Of a DNA stretch of 56,452 nt, positions 22,033-29,773 are shown piece by piece. Origin of the DNA: Methanosphaera stadtmanae. GTDB taxonomy: Archaea > Methanobacteriota > Methanobacteria > Methanobacteriales > Methanobacteriaceae. The notes under the pieces are model-generated. The model did not search any database, was not told where the DNA came from, and saw nothing but the letters and a program-made list of their open reading frames with translations. Numbering within the stretch: position 1 is the first letter of the stretch; each line of letters opens with the position of its first letter. The stretch is from assembly GCA_015062825.1 (NCBI GenBank), contig SUTR01000008.1, positions 4,505-60,956 of the forward strand, read 5' to 3'. Both the position numbers and the translations under genes were made by a program.

Positions 22033-24237
22033 TTAAATATGAATTATATTTTCCAAATTCATCCAATGCCATACTTTATCCCGAGACCAACCCGTTGCAA
22101 TATTCTGAATAAAAATATTATTCTGGAAATCACCCTTGTATCCATCTTTCATACTTGTCAATCCAGTGAGAACCAAAATTGTTTTTGATCTACTATATGC
22201 AACAAAATATCTCCTAATTAAATCATTGAATGCTTCATCAACACCACTTATACTACCTAAAATATTATTTAATGGAGAATATACCTTTAAATATTTTTCT
22301 ATATTATACGAAGAACCCCCATTTTTTGGAAATCTCTTAAAAGCTGTAGTTGATTGATTATTATAAATATCAGAGCCCACATCAACAATTACAACATCAA
22401 ATTCTAGTCCTTTAGATTGATGTATTGACATGACATTCACATTTTCATAAATATCAAAGTCAAACATGTCATCATCAATATTAACCGCACCCGTTGCAAT
22501 TGGAATTAAGATATGAGACAGTATTTGATTGTTTGTTAAAATGCCATCCTCACTAATTGCATTAGAAGTTTGTTCAATGGTATCATGTATAATCTCATTA
22601 TAAATCATATTTTCAGAGTTTTCTTTAATTTTATCCTCTAATTGATTGGATATGTCATTTAATAAATTCATCATATTAATACTTGTCTGTTCTTGATTTA
22701 TGATAAAATCATTATCTGAGATATATTCTAATGCATTTTTTCTCCATAATCGTAATGTTTTATTTGTATGAGGTGGAATATTCTCAAGTTTTTCAGGATA
22801 ATCACCCTTAGAATCTACACATATCAATATTAATCCACAAATAATTGATACTAATTCTGTTGTTTCTATATTTTGTCCTCTAGGATTGAATACTGTCACT
22901 TCTTCATCCTTATATGATAAACTTTCTCTAATAAAAAATGGTAAACGTTTCTTGTTATATGCTGTAATTTCCCTTGGAGAATTATTTAACAAGACTATTG
23001 AAGGATTGTTACCTGCAGATATTTCATATTCTATTTCTCCTCTAGTGACTTTATATCCATTTTTGACTTTTAATTGATATATGAACTCTGATAAATCTGT
23101 GGATAATTCTTCAAGATTATTTCTGAAGATTCCAAATATTGGACATCCCTTAATTGTATTACCAGAAGGTGTTATTAAAGGCTTATTTGATGTTCTTGAT
23201 TTTTGGTAAATAGGATCAATATGAATAAAGTCATTTGTAAAATCAATTATATTGCTTGTAGATCTATAATTTTTTTGTAGAAAAATCTTCTTTGGTGTTA
23301 TATTTAATTGACTTTTAATTCTTGTAATGTAATTGGTAAATAATTCAATTGATGCACCACGAAATCTATATAATGCCTGATCATCATCACCAACAACTGT
23401 AATGTTTCCACCATTAGCAATTGCATATTCTGCAAGGTTAAAGTAAATCTGTTCCTGCAGATAATTAGTGTCCTGATATTCATCTATTAATAAAATTCGA
23501 ATATTTTCCAGCCTATGAATTTGATTTTTAGATAATAACTCATGAAATTTAGTCTCTAACATTACATAATCCATAATATTACGTTGTTTTAATTGATTAT
23601 CATACTCATTTATAATATCATAAATTATTTTTTCACGATTAGCATTAGCAATTAGTCTTTCATAATCAACCATGTCATAAAAGATTCGTTCTCTGAAATT
23701 ATGAATAAATTTATTCAAATCAGATGCTGAGGACCTGCCTTGATTATTATTCATCTTCTTAACAAATTGCCTTAAACGTTTATCTTTATCATGCTGATTG
23801 TTAAGTAGCACTTGCATCATTATTGCACTTGAGGCTAAATCATCAATAATTTCTACAGGTGATATATCCGATAGGTATTCTTCGGCAATACTATCTAATG
23901 TACCAATAATTATAGAATCCAAATTAATATTTTCTTCTAATGATAAATGTTTAATAATGATATTTGCCCATCTTATAGTTCTATCTTTTAATTCACGAGC
24001 TGCCTTTTTAGTAAATGTCGTAACGATAATAGTTTCAGGATTTATATCATCCACAAATATGTATTTTAAAATTTTCAAAACAAGTACTGTTGTCTTACCG
24101 CTACCTGGTCCTGCAACAAGATATTGGTTTTCATCAACAGGGGCCATTATTGAATTTTTTTGATTAAGATTATCCTTAACATTACGCTTTAATAATCCTT
24201 CTATAATATTAATAAATTCATCTTCAGAAATCATCAT
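22033..24237 (-). CDS. UvrD/Rep-type superfamily 1A DNA helicase
   Basis: The protein has about 734 residues with all main motifs: Walker A AGPGSGKTTVL (about residue 43), VTTFTKKAARELKDR (Ia), LLIDEYQDTNYLQ (II), VVGDDDQALYRFRGAS (III), KNYRSTSNIIDF (IV), VMSIHQSKGLEFDVVIVD (V) and RRYFVAYSRSKTILVLTG (VI). It would be a 3'-5' ATP-dependent DNA translocase/helicase in repair or recombination. No nuclease domain is visible at the C-terminus. Candidate starts are GTG 24249, ATG 24237 and ATG 24234; none has a strong ribosome binding site. It follows hdrA in the same direction by a few tens of bases, although a hairpin and T tract lie between them. Confidence 0.92.
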   Translation of the reverse strand: MMISEDEFINIIEGLLKRNVKDNLNQKNSIMAPVDENQYLVAGPGSGKTTVLVLKILKYIFVDDINPETIIVTTFTKKAARELKDRTIRWANIIIKHLSLEENINLDSIIIGTLDSIAEEYLSDISPVEIIDDLASSAIMMQVLLNNQHDKDKRLRQFVKKMNNNQGRSSASDLNKFIHNFRERIFYDMVDYERLIANANREKIIYDIINEYDNQLKQRNIMDYVMLETKFHELLSKNQIHRLENIRILLIDEYQDTNYLQEQIYFNLAEYAIANGGNITVVGDDDQALYRFRGASIELFTNYITRIKSQLNITPKKIFLQKNYRSTSNIIDFTNDFIHIDPIYQKSRTSNKPLITPSGNTIKGCPIFGIFRNNLEELSTDLSEFIYQLKVKNGYKVTRGEIEYEISAGNNPSIVLLNNSPREITAYNKKRLPFFIRESLSYKDEEVTVFNPRGQNIETTELVSIICGLILICVDSKGDYPEKLENIPPHTNKTLRLWRKNALEYISDNDFIINQEQTSINMMNLLNDISNQLEDKIKENSENMIYNEIIHDTIEQTSNAISEDGILTNNQILSHILIPIATGAVNIDDDMFDFDIYENVNVMSIHQSKGLEFDVVIVDVGSDIYNNQSTTAFKRFPKNGGSSYNIEKYLKVYSPLNNILGSISGVDEAFNDLIRRYFVAYSRSKTILVLTGLTSMKDGYKGDFQNNIFIQNIATGWSRDKVWHWMNLENIIHI

Positions 24238-24250
24238 ATATTCTTCCACT

Positions 24251-24287
24251 AAAAAAAATGAATTGATAAATATTAATTATCTAATAT
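24251..24287 (-). terminator. Hairpin at the hdrA stop codon plus T tract
   Basis: ATATTA (24270-24275) pairs with TAATAT (24282-24287), touching the hdrA stop codon. On the minus strand a run of eight T follows just before the helicase start. It could terminate or attenuate read-through into the helicase gene. Confidence 0.5.
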
Positions 24288-26588
24288 CTTCAATTCCTCA
24301 TCAAACTCTTTAAACTGATTTGCTAATCCTCTGAAATATGGTATAAATACGCTATGTATCAATAAACGTTCAGGGTTAATTCCATCATCTTCCAAATGTT
24401 TTTTCATTACTTTAACATTTTCTCTTATTTCATTATGCTTTGGACCATCAGGATATTCTCCTAAAAATACTCCATCTGCTCCATGAGTTAATGCATATTT
24501 TATATGTCTGTATTTTACACGATTTACAAAGGGTACATTAATTATCCTAATACTTGAAGGACATTCCACACGATTTATTCCCATATTATTTGCAGATACA
24601 TTACCAATATCATCTAAAAATGCTATTATTATCTGTTCATCATCAGATTTATCCTTCAATACTCCTTTTATGCTTGCTTCTAATTTTTCATCACTTTGTC
24701 CTAATATACTAATTGCTTCTTTTGGACATGTTATAATACAATCCCCACAACCAGTACATGCAATCGGTCCAACCCTTATGGAATTATTATTTAAGGACAA
24801 TGCTTGATAACGACAGTTTTCAATACATTTACCACATAAAATACATCGTTTTACATTGATATCTGCTATAAATGGTTCTACCTCCAATCCACCATTAACC
24901 AGTTCAGATATTTTAGTAGCTGCAGTATTTGCTTGAATAATACTATCCGTAATATCTTTAGGTCCCTGCGCTGTTCCACATACAAATATTCCTTCAATAT
25001 CCGTAGAAACAGGTTGCATCTTTGGATGTTTTTCTTTAACAAAATTATCTTCAGTCAATGGAACACCCAACGTTTTAGCAGCATCCATAGTTCCTTCTGA
25101 TGATTCTAATGCAGCAGACAAAACAACTAAATCAGTGGAAATTTCCTGTTTGGTACGTGTAAGAGTATCTTCAATCCTCACTACCATATGCCCATCTTCA
25201 CGTGCAATTTCACCAGGTCTTCCTCGTATAAGTTTTATACCATTATCCTGAACATATTTATAATATTTTTCATATACTCCAGGAGTTCTAATATCGGTAT
25301 AACATATAATTATTTCAGTATCCGGATAATGTGAGCGTATAAGATTTGCATTCTTTAAGGCCACCATACAACATACCTTTGAACAATATTTATGTCCATC
25401 AGGCATCTGATCACGTGAACCAACACATTGAATCATCACCACTCTTTTAGGTATTTTACCCGTAGATGGTACTGTTAAATGACCATGTGTCGGCCCATTA
25501 ACTCCCATTAAACGTGCAAGTTGCATTTGACTTAGCACATCCTCATAAAACGCATGTCCATATTCTGGCCTTTTAGTGGTATCAAAACGTTGATGACCTG
25601 ATGCTATTACTACAGAACCCACAGTTAATGCTATTAATTCATCTATTGCATCAAGATTTATTGCGTTTGTAGGACATACATTAAGACAAGCCCCACACTT
25701 TATACAGGAATCAGAATCTAACGTATAAGTACTTGGAACTGCTTGTGGAAAAGGTTTGTAAATGCTTTTTCTATCATTTAAACCTTCATTCCATTCATCT
25801 GGTGCATATGAAGGACATACTTGTGTACATTTCCCACAACTTGTACATTTTTCAGGATCTACAAAATCAGGTTTTTTACGTAGTATTACATCGAAATTAC
25901 CAGAATTACGAGTGGATTTTTCAAGTACTGTATTTGTTAATAGGGTAATATGTTCATTATGAACCATTTCATGAATAACAGGATTTAATAAACATGCAGC
26001 ACAATCTTCTGACATTTTATCAGGAGTAAATACTTTTCCTACCTGTATCATAGCCCCACCAACAGCAGGACGTTTTTCTATCAAGGTTACTTCCATACCC
26101 TGTTTTGCAAGAGAATTTGCAGCAGTTATACCAGATATTCCTGCACCTACTACTAGAACACTATTTTTTACTTTTGTTGGAATTTTTTTAAGTGATTCAT
26201 TATATTTGACTGATTCAATTGCAGAATTGACTAAAGATAATGCTTTTCTAGTTGCATCTTCTTTGTTGTTTGTTACCCATGAACATTGTTCCCTAACATT
26301 AGGCATTTCAAACAAATATGGATTTAATGGCTTAATATATTTTTGAAATGTTGCACCATGAGTAATCTTTGAACATGCTGAGATAACAACCCTATCTAAG
26401 TCCTTTCTTAATATTTGATCTTTTATAATGTTACGACCCTCAAGTGAACAAAGATTTTCATGATGTTTTATTGAACAGACACATTCATTATCTGCTAATT
26501 TTTCTTCTACCTTATCCAAATCAACATAATCAGATATGTTTCCGCCACAATGACATAAAAAGACACCAATTCTATTATTTTCTGACAT
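24273..26588 (-). CDS. hdrA: Heterodisulfide reductase subunit A with degenerate MvhD-like C-terminus
   Basis: The protein has 771 residues, longer than the roughly 660 usual for Methanobacteriales HdrA. In order it has an N-terminal iron-sulfur domain (VFLCHCGGN, CSLEGRN, SACSK), FAD-binding VVGAGISGITAAN, DCAACLLNP, two inserted ferredoxin clusters (CTSCGKCTQVCP, CIKCGACLNVCP), the CVGSRD/KYCSKVCCM region, and two C-terminal clusters (CILCGKC, CTGCGDC). Residues about 650-771 align with MvhD (SSIRIINV, HGADGVFLGE, DGINPERL) but lack every cluster cysteine. HdrA is the flavin subunit that bifurcates electrons in heterodisulfide reduction. ATG 26588 is chosen because GAGGAGG lies 9 nt upstream. 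It overlaps hdrB by 14 bp. Confidence 0.93.
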   Translation of the reverse strand: MSENNRIGVFLCHCGGNISDYVDLDKVEEKLADNECVCSIKHHENLCSLEGRNIIKDQILRKDLDRVVISACSKITHGATFQKYIKPLNPYLFEMPNVREQCSWVTNNKEDATRKALSLVNSAIESVKYNESLKKIPTKVKNSVLVVGAGISGITAANSLAKQGMEVTLIEKRPAVGGAMIQVGKVFTPDKMSEDCAACLLNPVIHEMVHNEHITLLTNTVLEKSTRNSGNFDVILRKKPDFVDPEKCTSCGKCTQVCPSYAPDEWNEGLNDRKSIYKPFPQAVPSTYTLDSDSCIKCGACLNVCPTNAINLDAIDELIALTVGSVVIASGHQRFDTTKRPEYGHAFYEDVLSQMQLARLMGVNGPTHGHLTVPSTGKIPKRVVMIQCVGSRDQMPDGHKYCSKVCCMVALKNANLIRSHYPDTEIIICYTDIRTPGVYEKYYKYVQDNGIKLIRGRPGEIAREDGHMVVRIEDTLTRTKQEISTDLVVLSAALESSEGTMDAAKTLGVPLTEDNFVKEKHPKMQPVSTDIEGIFVCGTAQGPKDITDSIIQANTAATKISELVNGGLEVEPFIADINVKRCILCGKCIENCRYQALSLNNNSIRVGPIACTGCGDCIITCPKEAISILGQSDEKLEASIKGVLKDKSDDEQIIIAFLDDIGNVSANNMGINRVECPSSIRIINVPFVNRVKYRHIKYALTHGADGVFLGEYPDGPKHNEIRENVKVMKKHLEDDGINPERLLIHSVFIPYFRGLANQFKEFDEELKILDN

Positions 26589-27558
26589 GCAATGTGTCCT
26601 CCTCTGGGTTATAGTCAATTCCTAATTTTTCTAGTAATGGTTCTACATTAACAGTATGTGTTTGAATACCAAGTACTTTATATGGATCTGCACCCATATA
26701 TAATGCCACAAGTTGGGCAATATTCAGTATTGCAAAATAATGTTTATCACCAGTCCTATCTTCCAATACCTGTTGATATCTGTCAAATTGTAGTTGACAA
26801 TTAGGACACATTACAAGTAATACATCAACATTTTCCTTATGCAGACTTAAAAATTTATCCTCTGTAGCATCTAATGATAATTCCCTATTTGCATATCTTT
26901 GTCTAAATCCACCACCACAATGTCTTGGTTTATGATCATACCATTTAAGAGCTGGTGCATCCATTACTTCACATATTTTATCAATTATTTCAGGATTTCT
27001 ATATCCACATAATGTATCATCATAATGAACTTTACAATAATGACATCCATGATGTGTTGCAATGATAAGATTTGATATGTCTCTCTTTTTATGTTCAGGT
27101 ATTTTATCCCTCAAGTAATATAACACATCTACAACATGAGTAATATCATTTTTAACGTCGATATCTCCCTTATCATATTGGAATTCTTCCAATCCATTTT
27201 CCCTAAAAGCCTTGTTAACTTTTTCTCTTACTTCATCCTTTTCATTCAATAATTTTGCAGAACTCTTAAGTATAGCATAACATGTTGCACACATAGGCAC
27301 ATATTGTTTATGATCATTCTTGATTGCATAATGGAAGTTTCTTGCTGCTAATGCTGCTGTAGATAATTCATCAAAAATATCATAGTAATGTCCCAATCCC
27401 GTACAACAAGATTGATTTCTATCAATTACATATTCTACACCTAACTTGTCAAAAACGTATTTTGTTGAAGATTCCACTCCAGGATATTCTGCTGAGACTA
27501 AACAACTTCTAAATAATGTAATATTTTTGGTAGGTATAAATTTATCAATTTCTGTCAC
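26575..27558 (-). CDS. hdrB: Heterodisulfide reductase subunit B, variant CCG motif
   Basis: The protein has 327 residues. HdrB carries two CCG domains that bind the non-cubane clusters where CoM-S-S-CoB is cleaved. The first domain is complete: Cys19, Cys51-Cys52, Cys90 and Cys93. In the second, Cys172, Cys214, Cys251 and Cys254 are present, but the first cysteine of the CC pair is His213 (PRHCGGGF in place of CCGAGGG). An extra Cys175 and Cys184 lie nearby in HHGCHYCK...TLCGYR. The N-terminus carries about 10 extra residues. The start is GTG 27558 with a GGGGGA site. It lies between hdrC (11 bp gap) and hdrA (overlap). Confidence 0.92.
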   Translation of the reverse strand: MTEIDKFIPTKNITLFRSCLVSAEYPGVESSTKYVFDKLGVEYVIDRNQSCCTGLGHYYDIFDELSTAALAARNFHYAIKNDHKQYVPMCATCYAILKSSAKLLNEKDEVREKVNKAFRENGLEEFQYDKGDIDVKNDITHVVDVLYYLRDKIPEHKKRDISNLIIATHHGCHYCKVHYDDTLCGYRNPEIIDKICEVMDAPALKWYDHKPRHCGGGFRQRYANRELSLDATEDKFLSLHKENVDVLLVMCPNCQLQFDRYQQVLEDRTGDKHYFAILNIAQLVALYMGADPYKVLGIQTHTVNVEPLLEKLGIDYNPEEDTLHVRK

Positions 27559-27569
27559 TATTTTTCCCC

Positions 27570-28178
27570 CTACTTCCTATTTCTTACATCTTTAACTTCT
27601 TTAACGCGTTTTTTAAAGCCTATCGCTTCAAGTGTCTTATCAACAGTTTCTTTAGCTTCAGGAAGTAAATACATACTATCCAATCCTAAATCATTACGAA
27701 CATCATCTAAATTTTCCTGAAGATTTTCCCAATGTTTTCCATAATCAGTTCTTAGTTGATTATAATGTTCTTTAGGAATAATACCTAATCCTTCTTCTAA
27801 GTAACTATCTGCAAAACTCATAAAGGATTCTATCTGTTTTTTTCCTGTATCCTTATCTATTGCCATCTGTCGTAGTATTTGATTGACTTCACATACACTA
27901 TTTCCTACAGGACAAACACTATGACATGTATAACAATAGAAACAATTCCATATAATGTCATCTTCTATGATTGTTTCATCATTGTCTAAAACTCTTTTAA
28001 TAATTTCTCGGGCATCATATTCAGAATGACGTGATGCAGGACACATTGATGTACATAATCCACATTGTACACAACGAAGTAATCCTAAATCAGCAGGAGC
28101 TTTAATATCCTTTAATACTTTATGAGCCAAATCATCTTGTGATTCATTGACCATTTCTTGTCGTTTCATTGTTGTCAA
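27570..28178 (-). CDS. hdrC: Heterodisulfide reductase subunit C
   Basis: The protein has 202 residues. HdrC is the two-cluster ferredoxin-like subunit that carries electrons from HdrA to HdrB. Both [4Fe-4S] motifs are intact: Cys36, 39, 42, 46 in CVQCGLCTSMCP and Cys79, 82, 85, 89 in CFYCYTCHSVCP. The C-terminal part (residues 110-202) is helical and slightly longer than in canonical HdrC. The start could be TTG 28178 (6 nt after GGTGT) or ATG 28169. It is the first gene of the hdrC-hdrB-hdrA operon. Confidence 0.92.
   Translation of the reverse strand: MTTMKRQEMVNESQDDLAHKVLKDIKAPADLGLLRCVQCGLCTSMCPASRHSEYDAREIIKRVLDNDETIIEDDIIWNCFYCYTCHSVCPVGNSVCEVNQILRQMAIDKDTGKKQIESFMSFADSYLEEGLGIIPKEHYNQLRTDYGKHWENLQENLDDVRNDLGLDSMYLLPEAKETVDKTLEAIGFKKRVKEVKDVRNRK

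Positions 28179-28399: not shown

Positions 28400-28411
<12 letters not shown>
28386..28411 (-). terminator. Hairpin spanning the cysS stop codon
   Basis: GAAGACAA (28392-28399) pairs with TTGTCTTC (28404-28411), a perfect 8-bp stem with the stop codon at 28400-28402 in the loop. On the minus strand it is followed by TCCTTTTCTT, a modest T-rich tail. Confidence 0.6.

Positions 28412-29773
<1,362 letters not shown>

Follow-up and report, generated by a model that had tools for sequence, protein, structure and literature searches.

The HdrA encoded in the window (the whole stretch of 56,452 nucleotides of Methanosphaera stadtmanae DNA that was analysed) belongs to a distinct and ancient class of HdrABC, HdrA1B1C1, whose HdrA ends in an MvhD-like domain that carries none of the cluster cysteines of MvhD. 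The domain and its missing cysteines had been noticed in a first-pass annotation of this one protein. It is now clear that the trait marks a whole class of HdrA, in which it occurs together with loss of Glu356 (M. thermolithotrophicus numbering) and with loss of cluster ligands in the partner subunit HdrB.

The genes and sites concerned are collected in Table 1. The reading frame of hdrA is intact, with its ATG at 26588 and a stop codon that ends at 24273, and hdrB overlaps the start of hdrA by 14 bases. The protein consists of an N-terminal cluster, an FAD domain, two ferredoxin domains and the cluster-free MvhD domain, in that order, and the C-terminal ferredoxin domain retains 8 of 8 ligand cysteines in the cysteine columns. 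In the HdrB of the window the first CCG motif is intact and the "CC" of the second reads HC. The cysteinyl-tRNA synthetase-like gene lies upstream of the hdr operon in genome G014 as well. Numbers given for Pfam and NCBIfam matches and for invariant residues such as D657 refer to a translation that starts at 26582, two codons after the ATG.

Table 1. Features of the hdr locus in the window
Feature	Position	Strand	Basis or remark
UvrD/Rep-like helicase ORF	22033..24249		Named by eye; follows hdrA, likewise in G014
hdrA1-class gene, 771 aa	24273..26588	-	ORF; NF041891 1184 bits, full length; tree
Cluster-free C-terminal domain, MvhD/FlpD fold	24276..24647	-	Residues 648-771; PF02662, AlphaFold2 model, Foldseek
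C-terminal ferredoxin domain	24714..24848	-	Fer4_7 match 579-623 (numbering two below ATG-based)
Lys412, at the Lys409 position (FAD N5); conserved	25353..25355	-	Alignment to 5odc_A, 149 rows
Ala358, at the Glu356 position of M. thermolithotrophicus HdrA	25515..25517	-	Alignment to 5odc_A, 149 rows
hdrB partner	26575..27558	-	NF041780 501 bits, above cut-off
hdrC partner, two [4Fe-4S] motifs	27570..28178	-	NF041890 hdrC_Methbact 276 bits, cut-off 270
Cysteinyl-tRNA synthetase-like gene, upstream neighbour	28400..29773	-	ORF; named by eye

The C-terminal domain matches the FlpD family (PF02662) at residues 652-767 (654-769 from the ATG) with 79.3 bits against the Pfam cut-off of 22.3, so the match is not due to chance. 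An AlphaFold2 model of the domain (46 sequences, pLDDT 92.8) superimposes on MvhD of M. thermolithotrophicus (5odc_D) with a TM score of 0.88 and a Z score of 19.0 (Foldseek/VIA match), on the MvhD-related subunit of the Elp-Hdr complex of M. marburgensis with Z 19.2 and on MvhD of M. hungatei with Z 19.0; the best unrelated fold reaches Z 9.9 and the others score below that. The model of the full-length HdrA1 has a pLDDT of 86.7 and a pTM of 0.74. None of the five cysteine columns common to MvhD and HdrA2 holds a cysteine in the window domain. Where the organism's own MvhD reads CNWCCYGGADTAG, VMCSGR and GGCHMGDCHY, the window HdrA reads FLDDIGNVSANN, VPFVNR and GEYPDGPK. The sole cysteine of the domain, C676, is at a non-ligand position and is present in 33% of class rows. 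Matches to MvhD at Z of about 19, together with the missing ligand cysteines, indicate a domain of MvhD fold from which the cluster is gone; it lacks the [2Fe-2S] ligands that make MvhD an electron carrier, and it is fused to HdrA.

The first-pass annotation had named a frameshift that restores the cysteines as the result that would overturn its claim. No such frameshift was found, and in 29 of the 29 full-length relatives compared the cysteines are replaced likewise. A frameshift or pseudogene origin is ruled out by the intact reading frame and by the universality of the trait in the class. The annotation had also suggested a search for a second, canonical hdrA and a separate mvhD, and the genome contains both: a canonical HdrA of 652 residues (on C124) and an MvhD with all of its cluster cysteines. 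This HdrA shares the core domains and ligand cysteines of the window protein and is 40% identical to it, but like the HdrA of the Mvh-Hdr complex (5odc) it has no FlpD domain and retains Glu356. The canonical HdrB of the same genome has intact cysteines, unlike the HdrB of the window.

The cluster-free domain is under purifying selection. In three unsaturated pairs within the genus its dN/dS is 0.08-0.24, near the 0.04-0.17 of the core, it is retained in all 60 class rows, and the domain of the window protein is modelled with confidence as an MvhD fold. These values make it very improbable that the domain is an unconstrained vestige, a mere tail of the protein, even though between genera it diverges faster than the core (37-47% against 55-57% identity). 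A second alternative, that the pocket left by the cluster now binds some other ligand or partner residue (a nucleotide, F420 or CoM synthase, for instance) and gives the domain a new activity, would account for the invariance of D657, N687-R688, E709 and P711 near the old site in 18 Methanobacteriaceae rows (numbering two below ATG-based). It is nevertheless improbable, because the Methanosarcinaceae have N or S at the residue in the first motif and lack the NR motif.

The class was delimited in a set of 149 HdrA rows, which were sorted on two criteria, the MvhD cysteine columns and the residues at the Glu356 and Lys409 positions; the set retains near-duplicates (L038 and L097, for example, are identical in the core). 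In 60 rows a cysteine-free domain is combined with Ala (44), Gly (15) or Ser (1) at the Glu356 position, and the HdrA1 class is defined here by a cysteine-free FlpD domain and the absence of Glu356. The remaining rows comprise 48 with a cysteine-bearing FlpD domain and Glu356, 29 with Glu356 and no FlpD domain, and 12 in which the domain is cysteine-free but Glu356 is kept. With near-duplicates included, Glu356 is found in 0 of 60 class rows versus 89 of 89 other HdrAs; Lys409 is kept in all 149. The window protein has the lysine and has Ala for Glu, and so does not show the residue pair of a bifurcating HdrA. The HdrA ligand cysteines that align with those of canonical HdrA are conserved in 100% of class rows, apart from one at 88%. 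Two further cysteines of the window HdrA are also characteristic, C429 being present in 93% of class rows versus 2% of others and C537 in 98% versus 9%.

A tree of the HdrA core was computed from 114 rows with the FlpD domain and the 356 column removed, as a quick tree without bootstrap; the other 35 rows, mostly near-duplicates, had been dropped beforehand. The cysteine-free, Glu-less rows form a single branch of 38 (SH-aLRT 99) that contains Methanobacteriaceae, the Methanosarcinaceae HdrA1, Methanocella and a fourth family (f76), and the window HdrA groups there with the Methanosarcinaceae HdrA1. On this tree the loss of Glu356 requires one change and the cysteine-free state three. Two further cysteine-free groups retain Glu356, which argues that the cluster has been lost more than once while the domain was kept. 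These groups are found in Bathyarchaeota/Hadesarchaea/Thermoprotei-type archaea and in Cloacimonadota (rows L099, L101, L104, L105, L109, L115, L121, L124, L128 and L147; L119 and L138). A Thermoplasmata HdrA (L110) that has four of the five MvhD cysteines and Glu356 is sister to the HdrA1 class on a long branch, and is a possible intermediate.

Of 19 genomes from the same genus, 16 have a full-length fused orthologue of the window protein, and a further two (G001 and G011) have split matches. Such orthologues also occur in 13 of 16 further genera of the family, and were seen in none of 12 genomes of the same order and one of the same class. Locus L090 encodes a protein 88% identical to that of the window. 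One Methanobacteriaceae genome, G035, has a second HdrA1-class operon (L058 and L175; G035:C4:216444-218798) which groups with Methanocella and whose HdrB is Methanocella-like by eye; judged from these sequences it is probably a transferred copy.

The window HdrA has the length and domain order of NF041891 (hdrA_Methbact) and matches it over residues 4-767 with 1184.1 bits, below the cut-off of 1300. The Methanosphaera HdrA1 sequences (the one in G014 scores 1215) fall short of that cut-off, and Methanobrevibacter-like members exceed it. Against NF041778, the ferredoxin:CoB-CoM HdrA (HdrA1) family of the Methanosarcina type, the window protein scores 772 bits (cut-off 1400), and the M. acetivorans control genome scores above the cut-off. 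Methanosarcina HdrA1 (the MA3126-3128 operon of M. acetivorans) is nonetheless in the same clade as the window HdrA, aligns with it over the full length, likewise has a cysteine-free FlpD domain and has lost Glu356, and is encoded in a three-gene operon with an HdrB1 whose second CCG motif is also altered. The cores are 43-45% identical, and the gene order is A-C-B rather than the C-B-A of the window. HdrA1 has been stated to be without an MvhD extension (PMC6019823, in the text available). Contrary to that statement, the Methanosarcinaceae HdrA1 does carry the domain, in cysteine-free form; two such proteins score as FlpD with 57.3 and 34.6 bits (cut-off 22.3). The type Ia HdrA, or HdrA2, of M. 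acetivorans (NF040770) also ends in a fused MvhD, but HdrA2-type rows have five cluster cysteines and Glu356 and are found elsewhere in the tree. The window protein, with none of the five cysteines and 735.3 bits against a cut-off of 1100, is ruled out as a plain HdrA2 by its cysteines, Glu356 position and place in the tree. Fused type Ia HdrA is described as bearing a [2Fe-2S] cluster in the accessible portion of PMC12054007, where Glu356 is also said to be missing in 87 of 401 HdrA sequences and to keep Lys409 positioned; that portion draws no connection between the loss of Glu356 and cluster-free MvhD domains. No earlier report of a cysteine-free MvhD domain was found in the open-access literature.

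The HdrB partners of the class are also altered. By their sequences they have lost ligand cysteines in one of the two CCG motifs, 29 of 90 distinct sequences being intact with all ten cysteines. In the second CC pair, T or H replaces the leading cysteine in 53 of the 90 (T in 43, H in 9 and T in one partial sequence), the first motif reads C-S-C-C-S in 7 (Methanocella-like and f76), and there are other changes in one.

Alignments and predicted structure show that the class has kept the MvhD fold, the lysine at the FAD and the remaining cluster ligands, and has lost the MvhD cluster site, Glu356 and one HdrB motif. The model put forward here, whose chances seem to us about even, is a ferredoxin-fed and probably non-bifurcating HdrA1B1C1 without an MvhD inlet, which would serve CoM/CoB thiol synthesis and in which the dead domain would be a scaffold. 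With these three sites lost, electrons presumably cannot enter by the MvhD route. Reduced ferredoxin would most likely supply them instead, through the intact ferredoxin domains, and they would pass the FAD and HdrC to the remaining intact cluster of HdrB, which may act on a different or a single-site substrate. Bifurcation would probably be weakened or absent, because Glu356 reportedly holds Lys409 in place. The dead MvhD domain might be retained as a scaffold or docking surface. The first-pass annotation had offered a purely structural docking domain or a different electron donor, and that interpretation is partly supported: a domain that does not transfer electrons and a different donor both agree with the present evidence, and docking is put forward as a candidate function. 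Gene linkage, co-loss and published results on mutants further suggest that the role of the class lies in producing the CoM and CoB thiols, and not in the principal catabolic recycling of CoM-S-S-CoB. The reduction might be tied to the aldehyde-to-thiol step of the CoM synthase MMP16, or to a disulfide or persulfide that arises there.

Linkage was determined by whole-genome family searches for MMP16 (TIGR03287) and ComD (TIGR03845) in 143 genomes, 117 of which have hdrA1. MMP16 lies within 10 kb of hdrA1 in 63 of these 117, ComD in 52 and either one in 70, counts that are not independent because most of the linked genomes share one inherited operon. At control loci, canonical or HdrA2, MMP16 or ComD was found within 10 kb in 0 of 59 (58 genomes), and among 50 genomes with both kinds of locus listed, linkage is seen at 11 hdrA1 loci versus 0 controls. 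By group the linkage is 50/50 in g4 (one inherited arrangement), 3/3 in g5, 2/2 in g6, 5/6 in g10, 1/1 in g2, 1/1 in g15, 1/2 in g7, 3/3 in Methanocella and 4/4 in f76. Within the same 10 kb it is absent from groups g3, g8, g9, g11, g16 and g17 and also, which counts against a role in CoM synthesis, from Methanosphaera (0/18) and the Methanosarcinaceae (0/12). For Methanosphaera, CoM/CoB service is suggested by class membership. The genome of the window has two over-threshold MMP16 copies (G000:C10:7322-8512 and G000:C59:87088-88278).

In representatives with genes named by NCBIfam, the Methanobrevibacter-like order is comA, MMP16, hdrC, hdrB, hdrA, with comD-comE adjoining hdrA. The Methanocella arrangement has cysteate synthase and comDE divergent from hdrC, and in f76 MMP16 follows hdrA and cysteate synthase-comDE is divergent. 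The placement of MMP16 and comDE on opposite sides of the operon argues for at least two distinct arrangements. A separate comparison of 41 HdrA1 neighbourhoods used com seeds chosen after the neighbourhoods had been seen, and the whole-genome searches are the fairer test. Two other linkages from that comparison were set aside: CysK/CysE (1/41 loci), and homoaconitase of CoB synthesis (7/41, all Methanosarcinaceae, 7/12), which is not leaned on because homoaconitase, in the form of more distant homologues, is also near 5 of 37 control loci. In the open-access literature, no publication was found that connects hdr genes with com clusters.

The presence of hdrA1 and MMP16 is also correlated. In the three genera g4, g5 and g10 (75 genomes), 58 genomes have both, 16 have neither (8 of them at least 90% complete), one has hdrA1 alone (G104, 64% complete) and none has MMP16 alone. 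Genome G066 (2,937,203 bp), one of the 16, is without hdrA1, MMP16 and ComD. The co-loss may reflect physical deletion of linked genes. Outside these groups nine genomes have MMP16 and no hdrA1, which argues that CoM synthesis does not require hdrA1. M. ruminantium M1 is a CoM auxotroph. It is reported to be without key CoM genes, and M. millerae SM9 to have CoM genes and an extra hdrABC, with no link drawn between the two in the available part of that report (PMC4987999).

A catabolic role is a possible though somewhat doubtful alternative. HdrA1B1C1 would then be a ferredoxin:CoM-S-S-CoB reductase (or a Fd/F420 confurcating enzyme) without a hydrogenase inlet, and its association with CoM genes would reflect recycling of scarce CoM. 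This is how NCBIfam names the class (ferredoxin:CoB-CoM heterodisulfide reductase); ferredoxin has been proposed as the electron donor of the M. acetivorans enzyme, with F420 and heterodisulfide as acceptors (PMC6019823), and decreased ferredoxin cycling is reported for the mutant (PMC9963511). Deletion of MMP16 in M. acetivorans reportedly induces cysteate synthase, comDE and hdrABC, reversibly by addition of CoM (PMC12068725). This induction is taken here to favour a role in CoM synthesis; the authors of that study interpret the induction of hdrABC as recycling. However, hdrA1 loss tracks loss of the CoM synthase gene where canonical hdrA stays, and the altered HdrB CCG site and the lost Glu356 also count against a catabolic enzyme. 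In the hdrA1B1C1 mutant, moreover, total CoM is reported as 16.66 versus 28.16 nmol/mg and CoB as undetectable, yet the reduced fraction rises from 82 to 93% (PMC12713407); a smaller pool with a higher reduced fraction fits impaired synthesis better than impaired recycling.

In its most specific form, held only tentatively, the proposal of a role in thiol synthesis makes HdrA1B1C1 a dedicated, non-bifurcating CoM (and CoB) thiol reductase, in which the cluster-free MvhD would be a docking module that replaces the hydrogenase inlet. Ferredoxin electrons would then go to MMP16, or a disulfide or persulfide intermediate would be resolved. MMP16 is stated to need two or four electrons, depending on an unclear sulfur source (PMC12068725). 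Several reported observations count against a CoM role: MMP16 itself contains a ferredoxin domain and could take up electrons directly (PMC12068725), and the M. acetivorans hdrA1B1C1 mutant survives, its growth being mildly impaired, and is rescued by CoM plus acetate, CoM alone being insufficient (PMC9963511).

Two views are corrected by these results, namely the absence of an MvhD domain from HdrA1 and the equation of every fused MvhD with a [2Fe-2S] inlet. No role has so far been agreed on for the HdrA1B1C1 of Methanosarcina, and the three altered redox sites together with the com-gene neighbourhood allow a direct and testable assignment. Most of the Methanobacteriaceae that were searched have the class, Methanosphaera and Methanobrevibacter-like gut methanogens among them. 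If the reading as a dedicated thiol reductase is true, it would supply the reductant so far missing from the final step of CoM synthesis, for those lineages that bear the class.
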